Shown in pieces: positions 18,690-25,255 of a DNA stretch of 44,707 bases (position 1 is the first letter of the stretch; the number at the start of each line of letters is the position of its first letter). The position numbers and the translations under genes were made by a program. The notes beneath the pieces were generated by a model. It ran no database searches, was not told the DNA's origin, and was given only the letters and a program-made list of their open reading frames with translations. The DNA is from Spongiibacteraceae bacterium (GTDB taxonomy: Bacteria > Pseudomonadota > Gammaproteobacteria > Pseudomonadales > Spongiibacteraceae): assembly GCA_002710725.1 (NCBI GenBank), contig PAKT01000048.1, positions 1 to 44,707 on the forward strand, in the 5' to 3' direction.

Positions 18690-18825
18690 GGGTTATCTCA
18701 TCTTCAGGTCAATGGATTTGTCGGGCCAGGCTGTAAGCCGAAGTGCTCATGCTGTGCTATTTTAGCCCCCCGAAGCAAACCCGAAAGACGGGTTCGAGCG
18801 TGTTCGATGACAGATGGAGCAAAAA

Positions 18826-19389
18826 ATGAGTGAAGTGGATCCCGTAATGTTGGTTGACTACGGTCCTCTGCAAGCCCTGATTGGAGTCTGGGAAGGCGAT
18901 CAGGGGATGGATGTTTCGCCGGAGCCTGCGGCGGTTGAAGAAAATCCCTACAATGAAACCATAATCTTTGAAGCGGCGGGGGGTGTTACCAACGCCGAAA
19001 CCCAGACGCTGGCCATCCTGCGCTATCATCAGGTCGTCAAACGGAAAGCGAACGATCAGGTCTTTCACGACCAGATTGGCTACTGGACCTGGGACAAGGC
19101 CGGTAACACGATTTCTTTTTCACTCGCGATCCCGCGGGCGGTAACCGTACTCGCCGGCGGCACCTGGCAAGAGGGCAGTGACACGTTGAGCGTTAAAGCC
19201 AACGCCGATGGTGCTGACTGGGGTATAGCGCAGTCACCTTTTATGCTGGAAAAGGCAAAAACCACAGCCTTTGAAATGGCTGTGACGGTAAAAGGCGATA
19301 GCCTGCACTACAAGCAAACCACCTTCCTGAGCATCTATGGTCGCGAGTTTCCGCACACCGATGAAAACACGCTCAAGCGAGTGGGGTGA
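18826..19389 (+). CDS. heme-binding-like beta-barrel (nitrobindin/FABP-like) protein
   Basis: A 187-residue protein with the lipocalin-like GxWxG element at LIGVWEGDQG near the N-terminus and a pattern of beta strands ending in HTDENTLKRV. This matches the bacterial FABP-like/heme-binding-like family related to nitrobindin (THAP4 C-terminal domain), which binds haem or a small hydrophobic ligand. I choose the ATG at 18826, because GGAGC sits six bases upstream; an in-frame ATG at 18814 would add four residues. The ligand cannot be read from sequence. Confidence 0.75.
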   Translation: MSEVDPVMLVDYGPLQALIGVWEGDQGMDVSPEPAAVEENPYNETIIFEAAGGVTNAETQTLAILRYHQVVKRKANDQVFHDQIGYWTWDKAGNTISFSLAIPRAVTVLAGGTWQEGSDTLSVKANADGADWGIAQSPFMLEKAKTTAFEMAVTVKGDSLHYKQTTFLSIYGREFPHTDENTLKRVG

Positions 19390-19441: not shown

Positions 19442-19906
19442 ATGTCTCAAAATCCCTGTGTATGGGTTGATGCCGACGCCTGTCCTAAAGTTGTTCGCGA
19501 AATCCTGCTGCGGGCGGCTCAACGTACCGGCATTCAGTTGACCTTTGTTGCCAATCAGGCGGTGCCGGTGCCTCCTGCGCCCAATATAAAGGCTGTGCAG
19601 GTGCCGTCCGGTTTTGATATTGCCGACAACGAGATTGTGCGTCGGGTGTCGGTGGGGGATCTGGTTATTACCGGGGATATTCCACTGGCGGCAGAAGTGA
19701 TGGAAAAGGGCGCAGAGGCATTGAACCCGCGTGGCGAAATGTACACGGAAAATACCATCCGTCAGCGGCTGAATATGCGTGATTTTATGGATACCCTGCG
19801 CGCCAGCGGAGTTCAGAGCGGTGGGCCGCCTCCTCTGGGGCAGCGCGAGCGCCAGCAGTTTGCCAATGCTCTCGATCGGTATCTGGCAAAAGCCGGGTCG
19901 GATTAA
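19442..19906 (+). CDS. UPF0178 / YaiI-YqxD family protein
   Basis: A 154-residue protein of the YaiI/YqxD (DUF188) family, a PIN-like fold of unknown role. The conserved N-terminus [20 protein letters not shown] and the motif [19 protein letters not shown], with the later [16 protein letters not shown], are all present. It would act in the cytoplasm; a nuclease activity has been supposed from fold but is not shown. The ribosome binding site is weak. Confidence 0.93.
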
Positions 19907-20183
19907 AAATTGCGTCGTGCATTATTTCGGGGCTATTTTCCTTTGTTGTTTTCCCGTGACGTGAACCTATTTCGCGCGAGGTCCTGAGCTCTTTCAGTGC
20001 AGAACGGTGCTCGCTGGTCTTGGCTTTGCGCTACCCAATGCGGTGCAGAGCAGAAAGTTTCTCTGCGAGCGAGTGAAATAAACTCACGCAATTCATAGGG
20101 TTAAACGGTGCGGTCACGGGCGCGGTGGTAAGTTGGCAAGCAAATTGCTGACAGCTCGAAGTAACTGAGCAGCCGACCGAGCC

Positions 20184-22160
20184 ATGAATCCGAGCGTACC
20201 CGACCTATCCAGCACCAGCTCCCCGATTATTGTGATTGGCAGTGGGCCCGTTGGTGTAGCGTTCGTGCAGAAACTCAAAGCTCGGTTGCCCGGCGTTCGC
20301 GTCAAGTTGTTTGGTGCCGAAGAAGCGCCAGCCTATGACCGAATTCGGTTATCTGAATTGCTCGCCGGGAAATCCTCAGTAGCTTCCCTGTCTCAGGACA
20401 TATCGCTGGATGACGTAGAGTGCTTTTTTCACTGTGCAATTGTCGCTATTGATCCAGAGTCCCGTCACGTTGTCGATCACAACAATCAGATTCACCCTTA
20501 TTCACGCTTGATCATTGCAACCGGTTCGAGGCCCTATCGGCCCTCGATTCCCGGCGTCGATCTCAAGCGCGTATACACATTTCGCGATCTGCGCGATACC
20601 GAACATTTGGTGGCACGCCGCGCCGCCAGCCAGCACACCGTTGTTGTGGGCGGCGGATTGTTGGGTCTTGAGGCGGCGGCAGCCATGGCGCGGCTGAATA
20701 CCCGTGTCAGTGTGGTGCAGCAGGCGAGTCACCTGATGAACCGGCAGCTTGATGAGAAAGCGGCCAGCTTGCTGGAAGCTTCCCTGCGCAAGCGGGTTTC
20801 CGAGGTGTACACCGGGAGTGGGGTGAGGGAAATCCAGCCTGCTTCGCAAGCCGCGCATACCGTTGGCGGAGTTGTCTTGCGCAATGGGCATGTGATTGCC
20901 TGTGACACGGTAATCATCGCGGCCGGTATTGAACCTAACACCGATCTGGCAAAGGCCAGTGGTATAGCGGTTGGCAGAGGTATCAAGGTAAATACTCGCC
21001 TTGAGACCAGCGTCGCAGGCATCTACGCCATCGGTGAATGCGCCGAGTTCGCTGGACAGCTCTACGGTTTGGTTGCTCCGGGGATCGAGCAGGCGGGGGT
21101 GCTGGCCGCAGCAATCGCCGGTCAGGAAGTTGCTTATCTGGGATCACTGAGTGCGTCCAAGCTTAAGGTTGCCGGTGAGTCTGTTTTCAGTGCCGGTGAG
21201 ATCCACAGTGACGAAACCACACTGCCACTGCAGTCCGCCGAATACTGTGACCCCGAGAAATCACTCTATCGCAAACTGCTGGTCAGTCGCGGGCAGTTAG
21301 TCGGTGCGCTGGGCTATGGGGAGTGGGAGGAGACGCCGCGTTTGCAGAGTGCCATCAGTGAGCAGCGTCGGGTGTTCTTCTGGCAACTCTGGCGTTTCCA
21401 GAAGACGGGCAGCTTGTGGCCTCAGGTTGAGCGAACCCAGGTTGCATCCTGGCCTGCGAGTGCGCGGGTCTGTAATTGTCGGGGTGTTACGCGCGGTGAC
21501 TTAAGCCGGGCGATACAGGGTGGCTGTCAGACCGTTACTGAAATTACTCAGGCAACCGGCGCTGCAGGTGTGTGCGGCAGTTGTGAGCCCTTGCTGCACA
21601 ACCTGCTGGGCGAGTCTGAGCGGCCGTCGTTTTCGGGCGGTTCCACCGCACTGGCTTTATTGGCTGCGCTGGCGAGTGCATTGCTGGTCGGCTTTATGCA
21701 AATCGATTTACAGCCCAGCAGCTCTATTCAATCTCTGCCTTGGTGGGAGCGACTCTGGTCTCATTCCGACTATAAGCAGTACACGGGCTTTACCCTGCTG
21801 GGTCTGCTGGCGCTGGGTTTACTGGTTTCATTAAAAAAGCGTCTGTTACCGGACAAACTGCGGGGCCACTTTTCTTACTGGCGCTTGTGGCATGTATTCA
21901 GCGGTGTAACCGCGCTGCTGCTACTTGGCCTGCATACGGGGTTCGAGCTCGGCGACAATCTGAATCGCTGGCTGATCTTGAATTTTCTGGCGTTGAGCGC
22001 GCTGGGTGCTGTGGTGGGTCTGGTGGTTTCTTTTGGAGCAAAACTCCCTGCCCGCCTGGGTAAACAGGCGCGGCACTGGAGCCAATGGGCACATCTGCTG
22101 GTGTCCTGGCCGCTGCCTGCGCTGCTCTCTTTTCATATTCTGTCGGTGTACTACTTTTGA
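20184..22160 (+). CDS. FAD/NAD(P) oxidoreductase fused to BFD [2Fe-2S] and membrane domain
   Basis: A 658-residue fusion of three parts. Residues 12-320 are a rubredoxin-reductase/NirB-type flavoprotein, with FAD motif IVIGSGPVGVAF and NAD(P) motif VVVGGGLLGLEAAAAM. Residues about 428-475 are a BFD-like [2Fe-2S] domain with CNC and CGSC cysteine pairs, as in NirB and NasC. From about 483 to the end there are five hydrophobic helices carrying histidines in LWHVFSG, LGLHTGFELG, ARHWSQWAHLL and FHILSVYYF, a pattern suited to b-type haems. I infer electron flow from NAD(P)H through FAD and [2Fe-2S] into membrane haem. The sirohaem reductase part of NirB is absent. Its stop overlaps the next gene's probable TTG start. 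Confidence 0.85.
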   Translation: MNPSVPDLSSTSSPIIVIGSGPVGVAFVQKLKARLPGVRVKLFGAEEAPAYDRIRLSELLAGKSSVASLSQDISLDDVECFFHCAIVAIDPESRHVVDHNNQIHPYSRLIIATGSRPYRPSIPGVDLKRVYTFRDLRDTEHLVARRAASQHTVVVGGGLLGLEAAAAMARLNTRVSVVQQASHLMNRQLDEKAASLLEASLRKRVSEVYTGSGVREIQPASQAAHTVGGVVLRNGHVIACDTVIIAAGIEPNTDLAKASGIAVGRGIKVNTRLETSVAGIYAIGECAEFAGQLYGLVAPGIEQAGVLAAAIAGQEVAYLGSLSASKLKVAGESVFSAGEIHSDETTLPLQSAEYCDPEKSLYRKLLVSRGQLVGALGYGEWEETPRLQSAISEQRRVFFWQLWRFQKTGSLWPQVERTQVASWPASARVCNCRGVTRGDLSRAIQGGCQTVTEITQATGAAGVCGSCEPLLHNLLGESERPSFSGGSTALALLAALASALLVGFMQIDLQPSSSIQSLPWWERLWSHSDYKQYTGFTLLGLLALGLLVSLKKRLLPDKLRGHFSYWRLWHVFSGVTALLLLGLHTGFELGDNLNRWLILNFLALSALGAVVGLVVSFGAKLPARLGKQARHWSQWAHLLVSWPLPALLSFHILSVYYF

Positions 22161-23455
22161 AAGCGCTCTCGGCCAAGACAGTGCTCTGGAGTCTGTGGGC
22201 GACGGCTGTTATCGGGCTGAGTGTCTGGTTGTCCTGGCCTCTGATTTTTGAAGAGCAGCAGGATATTTTTCTGGCTGGCGCAGCGACACATGGGCATCAC
22301 CAGATTGAGTTGGCATGCAATGCCTGTCACACCTCGCCGTTTGGCGGCAAAGAGGTGCTGCAGAGCGCCTGTATTGCCTGTCACGGAGCTGAACTCAAAG
22401 CGGTGAGTGACTCACACCCCACCAAAAAGTTTACCGATCCGCGCAATGCCGACCGTATTGAACGGCTGGATGCGCGCTACTGCATTGCCTGTCACGCCGA
22501 ACATCAGTTAGAGCGGACTCGGCCCATGGGGGTGACGCTGCCGGAGGATTTCTGTTTCGAGTGTCACGAGGACGTTGGGCGTGAGAGACCCTCCCACGCC
22601 GGCATAGGTTTTGAAACCTGTGCATCCGCTGGCTGCCACAATTTTCACGACAATCTCGCCCTCTATGAAGATTTTTTGCTGAAGCACAGCAGCGATCCCT
22701 GGCTGCTCGAAACCCAGCGGATACTGGAGCGGCCGTCTCAGCGAGAAGACCTCGCGGAGCGGGTAGAGCCGGATGCTCCGGACTCTGTTGTGGCTGACGA
22801 GGCACCGACTGCTGATTGGCAGCACTCTGCTCACGCCGCAGCTGGTGTGAACTGTAGCGACTGTCACGGCAGTGAGCAGCAGTGGCAGCCCAAGCCACTG
22901 CAGTCCGTTTGCGCGGGTTGCCATGAAAGGCAATTCGAGGGTTTTACTGCCGGCAAGCACGGCATGCGATTGGCGCAGGGGCTTTCGCCAATGGTTGTGG
23001 ATCAAGCCCGAATTGCGATGAAGCCAGAAGCGGGGCACCGCGAACTCACCTGCAACAGCTGTCATTCGGCGCACGCTTATGATCGTCAGGTTGCGGCAGT
23101 CGATTCCTGTCAGTCCTGCCACGATTCAGAGCACAGTCGAAACTATGCTCAGTCCGCTCATGCGGGCCTTGAAACGCCGGTGACCTGCGCTACCTGCCAT
23201 ATGCCCCGTCAGGAAAGCCCGGACGGCGGCTTTCACGTACAGCATAACCAGAGTGACAACCTTCGGCCCAACGAAAAAATGATCCGCAGTGTGTGTCTTG
23301 ACTGCCACGGTCTCGGCTTTGCTATCGATGCATTGGCGGATCAGGCTTTGATCGATCGCAATTTTACCGGTCGTCCTGCCCTTCATGTCGAATCCATCGA
23401 CATGGCGGTGGATCGTGCAAAAGCGGCTCCGACTCTGGATAACAGTTACCAATGA
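22157..23455 (+). CDS. membrane-anchored 11-haem c-type cytochrome
   Basis: The protein has one N-terminal membrane anchor and a periplasmic part with ten CXXCH motifs (CNACH, CIACH twice, CFECH, CSDCH, CAGCH, CNSCH, CQSCH, CATCH, CLDCH) plus one CASAGCH, a CX4CH variant between the fourth and fifth. That gives up to eleven covalent haems. I place the start at the TTG at 22157, overlapping the upstream TGA stop (TTGA), which gives 432 residues and a normal anchor; the open frame extends further upstream. It should carry electrons from the membrane flavoprotein to a periplasmic acceptor. It resembles no enzyme family I can name with confidence. Confidence 0.85.
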   Translation: MKALSAKTVLWSLWATAVIGLSVWLSWPLIFEEQQDIFLAGAATHGHHQIELACNACHTSPFGGKEVLQSACIACHGAELKAVSDSHPTKKFTDPRNADRIERLDARYCIACHAEHQLERTRPMGVTLPEDFCFECHEDVGRERPSHAGIGFETCASAGCHNFHDNLALYEDFLLKHSSDPWLLETQRILERPSQREDLAERVEPDAPDSVVADEAPTADWQHSAHAAAGVNCSDCHGSEQQWQPKPLQSVCAGCHERQFEGFTAGKHGMRLAQGLSPMVVDQARIAMKPEAGHRELTCNSCHSAHAYDRQVAAVDSCQSCHDSEHSRNYAQSAHAGLETPVTCATCHMPRQESPDGGFHVQHNQSDNLRPNEKMIRSVCLDCHGLGFAIDALADQALIDRNFTGRPALHVESIDMAVDRAKAAPTLDNSYQ

Positions 23456-23480
23456 TGCTTCTCAAGCAAGGAGAAAACCG

Positions 23481-24071
23481 ATGAAAACCACTCTTAAATC
23501 TCGCGCAGTTATGTCTGTTCCCCTGTTGTGTGCCACCTTGCTGTTAACAGGTGGCTGCGGGCAGAAAGAAGCCGCAGGTATTGATCCCAAGCTGTATACC
23601 GATTCTCTGTTTGCCGTAATGAATGCAGACAGAGCCAATTACACAAAACTCATTATCGGGCGTCTGGGGCCAAAGGGGGCTGATGCGATCAAGCCGAATG
23701 AGCATTGGGAGGATCTGGCCAATGGTGCGCCATTGCCCGCCCAAATGTTCCGTTTCGGCGCAGAAGTTGTTGCGGAAACCACCGATGAGTTCACTTATTC
23801 GCTGCAATCCATCTGGCCAATCAATAGCCAGAATGCGCCGCGAACTGAAATAGAGAAGGCCGGTCTGCAACACATTGCGGATAACCCGGGCTCCAATTTC
23901 TACGGCGAAGAGCAGCTGGGAGGAGTGAATTACTTCACCGCGGTATACCCGGATGTTGCTGTGGCGGCGCCCTGTGCGGATTGTCACAACAATCACAAGG
24001 ATTCGCCCCGTCGCGACTTCAAATTGGGTGACGTGATGGGCGGTGTCGTTATTCGCGTACCGCTGGACTAA
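23481..24071 (+). CDS. Tll0287-like (DUF3365) haem lipoprotein
   Basis: A 196-residue lipoprotein with signal peptide and lipobox ending LLLTGGC, followed by a DUF3365/Tll0287-like domain, a haem-binding relative of PAS/GAF sensor folds. The single c-haem motif CADCHNNH near the C-terminus, followed by LGDVMGGVVIRVPL, is typical. The ATG at 23481 has AAGGAG eight bases upstream, so the longer upstream frame is not used. In this cluster it is likely a periplasmic electron carrier or redox/gas sensor. Confidence 0.87.
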   Translation: MKTTLKSRAVMSVPLLCATLLLTGGCGQKEAAGIDPKLYTDSLFAVMNADRANYTKLIIGRLGPKGADAIKPNEHWEDLANGAPLPAQMFRFGAEVVAETTDEFTYSLQSIWPINSQNAPRTEIEKAGLQHIADNPGSNFYGEEQLGGVNYFTAVYPDVAVAAPCADCHNNHKDSPRRDFKLGDVMGGVVIRVPLD

Positions 24072-24093
24072 CACTGCAATTCAGGAGGGAATC

Positions 24094-24441
24094 ATGGTGC
24101 CCAGGGCGATGATCGTATTCGGCTGTCTCATGCTTTTGACAGCCTGTGAAAGCAAGCAGGCACCAACGACGGCATTGACGCCGGATTTGCAGGCTGGCAA
24201 AGCGGTTGTCGAGGCAAATTGCGTTGTCTGCCACAAGCCCGGCATCAATGGCGCTCCCATTATTGGTAATCCGAAAATGTGGCAGCGGCGGATCGCCCAG
24301 GGACAGGACGTACTCGTTCAGCATGCGATTGACGGCTACAACTACGACATGATGCCGCCGCGGGGCGGCAATCCGGAATTATCCGACAACGATATACGCC
24401 TGGCGGTTGCCTATCTGGTCAGCCAGGTGAAAGATCATTAA
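24094..24441 (+). CDS. mono-haem cytochrome c lipoprotein (c5-like)
   Basis: A 115-residue lipoprotein: signal peptide with lipobox LLTAC, then a small class I cytochrome c domain. The haem motif is CVVCHKPG, and the axial methionine is probably in the YDMMPPRGG segment, as in cytochrome c5 and c555 types. The ATG at 24094 follows AGGAGGGA; the longer frame upstream has no such site. It likely shuttles electrons in the periplasm as part of the redox cluster. Confidence 0.88.
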   Translation: MVPRAMIVFGCLMLLTACESKQAPTTALTPDLQAGKAVVEANCVVCHKPGINGAPIIGNPKMWQRRIAQGQDVLVQHAIDGYNYDMMPPRGGNPELSDNDIRLAVAYLVSQVKDH

Positions 24442-24457
24442 AAGAGGGGACCTACTC

Positions 24458-24871
24458 GTGGACGCAAAAACCATTACGCTGGTACAGGAAAGCTGGGCCA
24501 AAGTTGAACCGATCAGCATGACAGCGGCAGACCTGTTCTACGCCAAGCTGTTTGAACTTGATCCTGGTCTTGAGCCACTCTTCAAGGGAGATATGATGGA
24601 GCAGAAAGGAAAGCTGATGCAGATGATAGGCACGGCAGTGAAAATGCTGAATCGCCTGGACGAGCTGGTGCCGGTGGTAGTCAAGCTGGGTGAGCGTCAT
24701 GTCGAATATGGTGTTGTAGCCAAAGACTACGATACTGTCGGCGCGGCCTTGCTGGATACCCTTTCTAAGGGCTTGGGGGATGAATTCACCCCAGAGGTTG
24801 AGCAGGCCTGGACAGAAGTGTATGGCGTGCTGGCAGAAACAATGTTGAGCGCCGACAGTACACCGGCCTAA
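24458..24871 (+). CDS. single-domain globin
   Basis: A 137-residue bacterial haemoglobin of the Vitreoscilla (Vgb) type. By comparison with Vgb, the proximal haem ligand is the histidine of LGERHVEYG, the CD-loop phenylalanine is in PLFKGD, and the distal position is the glutamine of MEQKGKL. The start is GTG with GAGGGGA upstream. Proteins of this type bind O2 or NO; with a reductase they act as NO dioxygenases. It has no reductase domain of its own, so the flavoprotein of the same cluster is an obvious candidate partner. Confidence 0.93.
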   Translation: MDAKTITLVQESWAKVEPISMTAADLFYAKLFELDPGLEPLFKGDMMEQKGKLMQMIGTAVKMLNRLDELVPVVVKLGERHVEYGVVAKDYDTVGAALLDTLSKGLGDEFTPEVEQAWTEVYGVLAETMLSADSTPA

Positions 24872-24875
24872 AACG

Positions 24876-24912
24876 AAAAAAGCCGCGGTTCACCTGGGCA
24901 GTGACCGCGGCT
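24876..24912 (-). terminator. terminator between globin and secreted-protein genes
   Basis: AGCCGCGGT (24881-24889) pairs with ACCGCGGCT (24904-24912), with an extra CAC/GTG pairing inside. On the minus strand the stem is followed directly by a T-run (24876-24881), making it an intrinsic terminator for the gene at 24935; it may also stop the globin transcript. Confidence 0.85.
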
Positions 24913-24934
24913 GAAAACATAAAAATTAAAGTGA

Positions 24935-25255
24935 CTAGTTTTGGGCGAGCGAGCCGCTGCTGGCCAGCGCGCTAAAGATGTCTGCCTGTTTGTTGATGTT
25001 GTCCGCCAGGGATTTCAGTCGGCCAACATGATAGTTATAGGAAAAGCTGCTGAGCTGTACACAGGCATCCAGTGCTTGTTCCGCGGAGCGGATATAGTGC
25101 TGAATGGTGCTGACAGCCTGTTTCATTTCTTCGTAGCTCGCCTCCTGTGCAGTCGGGACTGCAGGCGATTCTTTAAAGATGGATAGAGAGCAATCGGCAA
25201 ATGCCGGTTTGGTGCCTGCCAAAATCAGCAGGGCGAAGCATAGAGACCTGAACAT
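24935..25255 (-). CDS. small secreted protein of unknown function
   Basis: A 106-residue exported protein. MFRSLCFALLILAGTKPAFA is a clear signal peptide, cleaved before DCSLS. The mature part is helical, with QAVSTIQHYIRSAEQALDAC and RLKSLADNINKQADIF, and two cysteines (start and middle) that could form a disulfide. I choose the ATG at 25255, because AAAGGAGG lies eight bases upstream; the frame begins 20 codons earlier without any site. I know no family. It is convergent with the globin cluster. Confidence 0.75.
   Translation of the reverse strand: MFRSLCFALLILAGTKPAFADCSLSIFKESPAVPTAQEASYEEMKQAVSTIQHYIRSAEQALDACVQLSSFSYNYHVGRLKSLADNINKQADIFSALASSGSLAQN

Follow-up and report, generated by a model that had tools for sequence, protein, structure and literature searches.

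Membrane proteins of the FRE/NOX/STEAP type combine a cytoplasmic flavin with two b haems, held by two histidine pairs on two helices, and deliver electrons to the outside; two stacked b haems are arranged in this way in cytochrome b as well as in FRE/NOX proteins. The NirB large subunit carries an FAD/NAD(P) domain, a BFD-type [2Fe-2S] cluster and a sirohaem domain, and among multihaem cytochromes NrfA and the octahaem nitrite reductases (ONR) have a CxxCK motif or an open active-site haem. Parts resembling these proteins were found in a five-gene cassette in DNA of Spongiibacteraceae bacterium (GenBank assembly GCA_002710725.1, contig PAKT01000048.1). The stretch analysed, here called the window, is 44,707 nucleotides long and spans a contig (G000:C48) in full; the genome to which it belongs is ~71% complete. 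The cassette likely encodes a transmembrane chain that passes electrons from NAD(P)H to the periplasm, and we give about even chances to the reading that this chain, independent of quinone, serves detoxification of nitric oxide (NO) or related nitrogen oxides during nitrate assimilation.

The closest tested precedent for NO removal during nitrate assimilation is narK-bjgb-flp-nasC of Bradyrhizobium japonicum, in which Bjgb and Flp, encoded in the nas operon, remove NO made in nitrate assimilation (PMC4724949). The truncated globin THB1 of Chlamydomonas, controlled by the nitrate regulator NIT2, likewise shows NO dioxygenase activity (PMC4304232). A 2026 preprint describes the Tll0287 family (sCache_heme) as Cache domains that carry a c haem, the ligands of which are Cys and His in Tll0287 and a P. 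putida protein; signalling members of the family are NO sensors, and one that lacks the Cys, from P. azotoformans, binds NO tightly (PMC12889525). Each part of the present cassette belongs to or resembles known families, and the flavoprotein fusion and the chain, as predicted from their sequences, match no described system in the literature searched.

Gene content and cofactor residues of the cassette

The five open reading frames (ORFs) lie in one run at 20184-24871, with a 4-nt overlap between the flavoprotein and cytochrome genes (22157-22160) followed by gaps of 25, 22 and 16 nt (Table 1). Pfam matches were, in gene order, Pyr_redox_2 with Rubredoxin_C and Fer2_BFD, Cytochrom_c3_2, Tll0287-like, Cytochrome_CBB3 and Globin, so that every member of the run named in the original prediction was recovered at its expected place. 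Pfam and NCBIfam identified the parts and neither named a known system. No match was found in PHROGs, and no leader RNA was found by Rfam upstream or nearby, a tRNA being the sole match.

The flavoprotein has a NirB/NorW-type FAD-NAD(P) domain at residues ~14-400, a BFD [2Fe-2S] domain with ligands C430, C432, C464 and C467, and a five-helix membrane domain at ~489-658 (hydrophobic segments by hydropathy at ~489-507, 532-553, 568-589, 597-615 and 638-656). Residues 15-485 aligned to NirB (TIGR02374) at 360 bits against a cut-off of 578, and the alignment ended at 485. The protein is thus like the NirB large subunit in its FAD/NAD(P) domain and BFD cluster but is no full-length NirB, the membrane domain standing where NirB has its sirohaem domain. 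Few positions were fully invariant in 30 orthologues; among them were the four cluster cysteines and H570, H584, H637 and H651. These histidines form two pairs (H570/H584 and H637/H651), each 14 residues apart, on two helices, which is the spacing of a two-b-haem carrier (two His pairs ~13-14 apart), and the Lys/Arg-rich loops of the domain fall on the flavin-domain side. The four histidines are accordingly candidate ligands of two stacked b haems. The membrane domain (residues 485-658) gave no Pfam match, including to ferric reductase-like or cytochrome b561-type families, and no relative in the PDB. On paper the protein shares its cytoplasmic flavin and two-b-haem layout with the FRE/NOX/STEAP type, a likeness of layout and not a test of membership, but it differs in having a NirB-type flavin domain with a BFD cluster, an 11-haem cytochrome as putative acceptor and a membrane domain without Pfam match. 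A membrane domain of this kind also occurs in another protein of 863 residues (L093:5833-8424, G338), fused there with cyclic-nucleotide-binding, BFD and FAD/NAD reductase domains, which suggests that the membrane module has been reused with another flavoprotein.

The cytochrome contains 10 CxxCH motifs and one CX4CH motif (CASAGCH), which upholds the predicted count of 11 haems. Across 33 orthologues the histidines of all 11 motifs were invariant, and so were exactly 11 more. This match of motifs with spare histidines suggests that all haems are probably bis-His-ligated and that the protein is a wire and not an enzyme, that is, an electron store or conductor that probably binds no substrate itself. 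In the structural model (mean predicted local distance difference test score, pLDDT, 72), of which the broad outline alone was used, there was one N-terminal membrane helix (residues 6-31), and no significant overall fold match was found. In profile comparison, some haem segments were remotely similar to those of NrfA and ONR, and some are remotely like those of DmsE/MtrA. The concern that the cytochrome might be a known enzyme with a different partner was not borne out, as its score reached the cut-off of no named NCBIfam family (48.8 against 192.2 bits for the DmsE-family decahaem profile, TIGR03508). Identity with NrfA or ONR was rejected because there is no CxxCK, all motifs end in CH with a spare His and no overall structural match was obtained, so that the cassette cytochrome shows no obvious open active-site haem. 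Identity with the DmsE/MtrA decahaem proteins was rejected on the score and because no MtrB-type gene lies in the neighbourhoods of the cassettes.

Within the cassette, conservation is highest in the Tll0287-like lipoprotein (Tll), with 49-76% identity to the window protein. The original assignment held, with PF11845 matched at 67.2 bits (cut-off 24.1) and the model best matching the Tll0287 structure 5b82 (E 2.8e-5; no other match under E 0.001). The CxxCH motif, M89, H172 and M186 were invariant in 32 orthologues. Tll resembles the family in fold and in the CxxCH haem insertion but differs in that its only conserved Cys residues are those of CxxCH, the remaining Cys being lipobox or signal-peptide residues; it therefore lacks the axial Cys of the Cys/His ligation described for Tll0287 and the P. 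putida protein, which marks a subgroup within the family, and it always has a multihaem cytochrome and a transmembrane flavoprotein as neighbours. The sixth coordination site of the Tll haem may be taken by a Met or may be open. The mono-haem cytochrome is present in 19 of the 35 loci compared, with C60-C63-H64 and M104 invariant (n=9).

This anatomy fits the original prediction that NAD(P)H could reduce periplasmic haems without quinone: a cytoplasmic flavin and [2Fe-2S] cluster, four invariant histidines across the membrane and c haems beyond it. Electrons would pass in the cytoplasm from NAD(P)H to FAD and the BFD cluster, then to an inner b haem (H570/H637) and an outer b haem (H584/H651), and from there to the membrane-anchored 11-haem wire, which would deliver them to the Tll haem and, where present, to the mono-haem cytochrome. 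The direction of flow, the redox order of the haems and the place of Tll as a terminal site are those we infer from this arrangement, in which a quinone site would not be required.

Conservation, absence as a block and nitrate neighbours

The prediction had looked to other genomes for the same gene order. The flavoprotein-cytochrome-Tll order was kept in 33 of the 35 loci, from more than 25 bacterial families, which far exceeds what chance would give. The two exceptions were L071, a contig with a partial cytochrome match only, and L092, the second of two copies in G235, the genome that also holds L091; this second copy (L092:6186-9538) is a partial cassette with a membrane-domain fragment, an 11-haem cytochrome and Tll. 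Pairwise distances of the core proteins were correlated (Mantel r 0.65-0.71, none of 2000 permutations as high), as expected for common inheritance, although genome relatedness alone would give some correlation.

In G002 and G001, which belong to the same genus as the window's genome, both flanks aligned to the window and the cassette alone was absent, the site measuring 91 bp in G002 and ~216 bp in G001 against 5.06 kb in the window. This clean absence between conserved flanks indicates that the cassette was gained or lost as a block, the ends of which match the run as it was first delimited. Full-length relatives of the membrane domain were present in 26 of 369 Gammaproteobacteria sampled. 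In a phylum-wide sample of 398 genomes they were confined to the window's genome and G035 (same order), apart from one partial match (G545), and wide spread beyond Gammaproteobacteria was rejected on this sample. A plasmid-borne cassette was likewise rejected, with no match in 72,556 plasmids.

An association with nitrate genes was observed that is new here. At 14/35 loci, the few kb covered around the cassette contain genes for NasT, NrtABC, NarK, a nitrate-cluster porin or NirD (in one of these, L080, the porin only). The chance expectation is below 1% if a genome of several Mb holds about one cluster of this kind; at a generous rate of 2%, a figure of our own choosing, p is ~3e-15. NrtA was present in 21/26 cassette genomes and in 53/343 others (Fisher p 5e-12), counts that are not independent, so that common ancestry inflates the significance, the 26 genomes spanning more than 20 families. 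NirB scored above its cut-off in 27/32 cassette genomes. The genome of the window holds a nitrate-reductase-like molybdenum (Mo) protein that shares 75% identity with a protein of the G026 nitrate cluster, which makes the nitrate link in this genome an indirect one. The gene after that of the Mo protein in G026 encodes a 4Fe-4S/DmsC fusion in the membrane, which suggests a quinol-linked assimilatory nitrate reductase. Related proteins without Pfam match, with a QxHRG motif recalling nitrate-sensing NIT domains, were found near three cassettes (L028:3039-3977, L032:9905-10792, L083:13729-14664).

The B. japonicum operon is alike in placing a single-domain globin beside an NAD(P)H flavoprotein and in its tie to nitrate transport genes. 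It differs in that Flp has no membrane domain as described, in having neither a multihaem cytochrome nor Tll, and in including the nitrate reductase inside the operon. A context of the Bjgb-Flp kind is partial among the cassettes: a globin-type partner and the nitrate genes each occur at some of the loci, neither is universal, and none of the nitrate genes is in the window.

The globin slot and the role of the chain

Beside the conserved core is a position occupied, in a lineage-dependent manner, by O2/NO-binding proteins, an observation that is also new: a globin in 18 loci, a group-I truncated globin in 5 (L021, L031, L032, L068, L072) and a hemerythrin-like protein in 3, together 26/35. The three loci whose flavoproteins diverge most, which form one branch (G406, G311, G035), lack a globin, and in each a hemerythrin-HHE gene lies directly upstream on the same strand; the copies at L077 and L033 are 43% identical. 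At three of the truncated-globin loci (L021, L031, L068) the next gene encodes a 2Fe-2S/FAD/NAD reductase. That a single cassette should be joined by three unrelated folds that bind O2/NO is hard to ascribe to chance and points to a common ligand. The window globin is closest in the PDB to 3s1i/3ubc, which we take to be single-domain globins of the Hell's Gate type, and then to 1vhb (Vitreoscilla haemoglobin). Its Tyr28, Gln49 and His81 (B10, E7 and F8 by alignment to 3s1i) were invariant in 16 operon globins, and Y21, Q46 and H69 were found in the 5 truncated globins (helix positions by alignment to 3aq5). These residues follow the pattern of NO dioxygenases (proximal His, Tyr B10, Gln E7/E11), which would permit such activity but is no proof of it.

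The globin had been taken to suggest a link to O2 or NO. That link stands, as the slot holds O2/NO-binding types, and the nitrate context, missed earlier, sharpens it to NO or nitrogen oxides as the proposed substrate. The cytoplasmic globin, truncated globin or hemerythrin-like protein would bind NO/O2 and would probably act as an NO dioxygenase (NO + O2 to nitrate), with electrons from the cassette flavoprotein or from a dedicated reductase encoded beside it. On the periplasmic side, the haem of Tll may bind or reduce NO or nitrite; it is a candidate NO site because the Cys-less relative from P. azotoformans binds NO tightly and the cassette Tll is without such a Cys.

Several points weigh against the NO role, in addition to the shared ancestry behind the NrtA counts. 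The window has no nitrate gene beside the cassette, and neither NrtA nor NirB was found in its incomplete genome. For about one quarter of the 35 loci, none of the three O2/NO-binding partners (globin, truncated globin, hemerythrin) is present in the DNA covered, and the residue patterns do not prove NO chemistry. The flavohaemoglobin Hmp is as rare in cassette genomes (3/32) as in NrtA-positive controls (3/30), with no sign of mutual replacement, and the cassette as a replacement for Hmp was rejected. The stand-alone Tll-type protein of P. putida bound NO weakly, and a redox role is given to stand-alone members (PMC12889525). The frequencies of NapA (below) and Hmp, and the loci without a globin-type partner, hold our confidence in the NO role near the midpoint.

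The chain could instead be a general electron outlet, passing NAD(P)H electrons through periplasmic c-type carriers to a cytochrome-c-linked acceptor (Nap, NorBC, an oxidase or a peroxidase) for redox balance in nitrate assimilation. The mono-haem cytochrome would be a natural carrier, and in G101 a nap cluster adjoins the cassette and nrtABC. We consider this unlikely, since almost half of the loci lack the mono-haem cytochrome but keep Tll, the globin, truncated globin or hemerythrin slot would be unexplained, and NapA occurs in only 5/32 cassette genomes against 8/30 NrtA-positive controls; by the same count, the cassette as donor to Nap was not supported. Homology of the flavoprotein to NirB/NorW-type reductases, and the placement of cassettes in nas clusters, would also suit a mainly cytoplasmic reductase for the assimilatory nitrate reductase and globin, like Bradyrhizobium Flp, with the membrane and periplasmic parts as a side path or overflow. 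Stand-alone NirB-N flavoproteins are rarer in cassette genomes (2/32 against 8/30 controls, a threshold-limited difference that is not significant alone). Yet the membrane domain, the 11-haem cytochrome and Tll are the conserved core, with correlated distances, the nitrate reductase is never inside the cassette, and G026 and G175 have a separate flavoprotein in addition to the cassette, all of which makes this reading quite improbable.

A module for extracellular electron transfer or metal reduction could be imagined from the remote similarity of the cytochrome to DmsE/MtrA and from an MtrAB-like pair on another contig of the window's genome, but no cassette has an MtrB-type porin or an outer-surface cytochrome and the link to nitrate uptake is strong instead; we regard this as very improbable. 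Hardly credible, to our judgement, is Tll as a periplasmic NO/redox sensor whose redox state is set by the chain: although signalling members of its family sense NO (PMC12889525), Tll carries no fused transducer domain (kinase, MCP, GGDEF), and none is conserved among the cassette genes.

No description of this gene set was found in the literature searched, subscription journals being mostly outside its coverage, and the earlier remark that it was not recognised as a described respiratory or nitrite system stands. The cassette is akin to membrane-crossing flavo-haem reductases and to nitrate-linked NO defence, and there is a real chance that it forms a class of its own. More specifically, and tentatively, a quinone-bypassing dehydrogenase might drive the removal of NO or nitrite by reduction at a Cache-type haem in the periplasm, alongside oxidative removal of NO by the cytoplasmic globin, as a two-sided shield in nitrate assimilators; we find this possible but doubtful. 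If the NO role is correct, nitrate assimilation, in textbooks a wholly cytoplasmic process, would have a direct NAD(P)H-to-periplasm route, which would help to explain how aerobic nitrate users survive NO from their own nitrate and nitrite reductases. It would also define a new class of membrane-crossing flavo-haem reductase and give a functional setting for stand-alone Tll0287-type proteins. The membrane domain, being without Pfam match, is a ready marker with which the spread of the cassette can easily be mapped.

Feature coordinates and neighbouring genes

Table 1. Features of the cassette in the window and of related loci (coordinates without a locus prefix are those of the window)
Feature	Coordinates	Strand	Basis or remark
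Flavoprotein fusion, 658 aa	20184..22160	+	Pfam, NCBIfam, invariant Cys/His in 30 orthologues, hydropathy, charged loops
11-haem c-type cytochrome, one N-terminal membrane anchor	22157..23455	+	TTG start; haem motifs/His invariant in 33 orthologues
Tll0287-like (sCache_heme) mono-haem periplasmic lipoprotein	23481..24071	+	PF11845 2.7e-18; structure match 5b82
Mono-haem c-type cytochrome lipoprotein	24094..24441	+	PF13442 1.2e-12; invariant C60-C63-H64 and M104
Cytoplasmic single-domain globin, Tyr28/Gln49/His81	24458..24871	+	GTG start; PF00042 7.1e-15
Cassette interval absent in two congeners	19888..24943	no strand	blastn of window against L121 and L122
Nitrate-reductase-like Mo protein, 739-742 aa	L095:8449-12603 (G026), L105:8397-10625 (G000:C49)		
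Hemerythrin-HHE genes	L077:4765-5313, L078:11348-11890, L033:10813-11349	same as cassette	Upstream of globin-less cassettes

A gene for a nitrobindin-like haem protein (THAP4_heme-bd) lies near the cassette at 18814-19389. It was dropped as a member of the system, as it stays in place in the congeners that lack the cassette. On another contig of the window's genome (L106:3274-6474, G000:C105), an MtrB/PioB-type barrel adjoins a 10-CxxCH cytochrome and may form a porin-cytochrome conduit with it.

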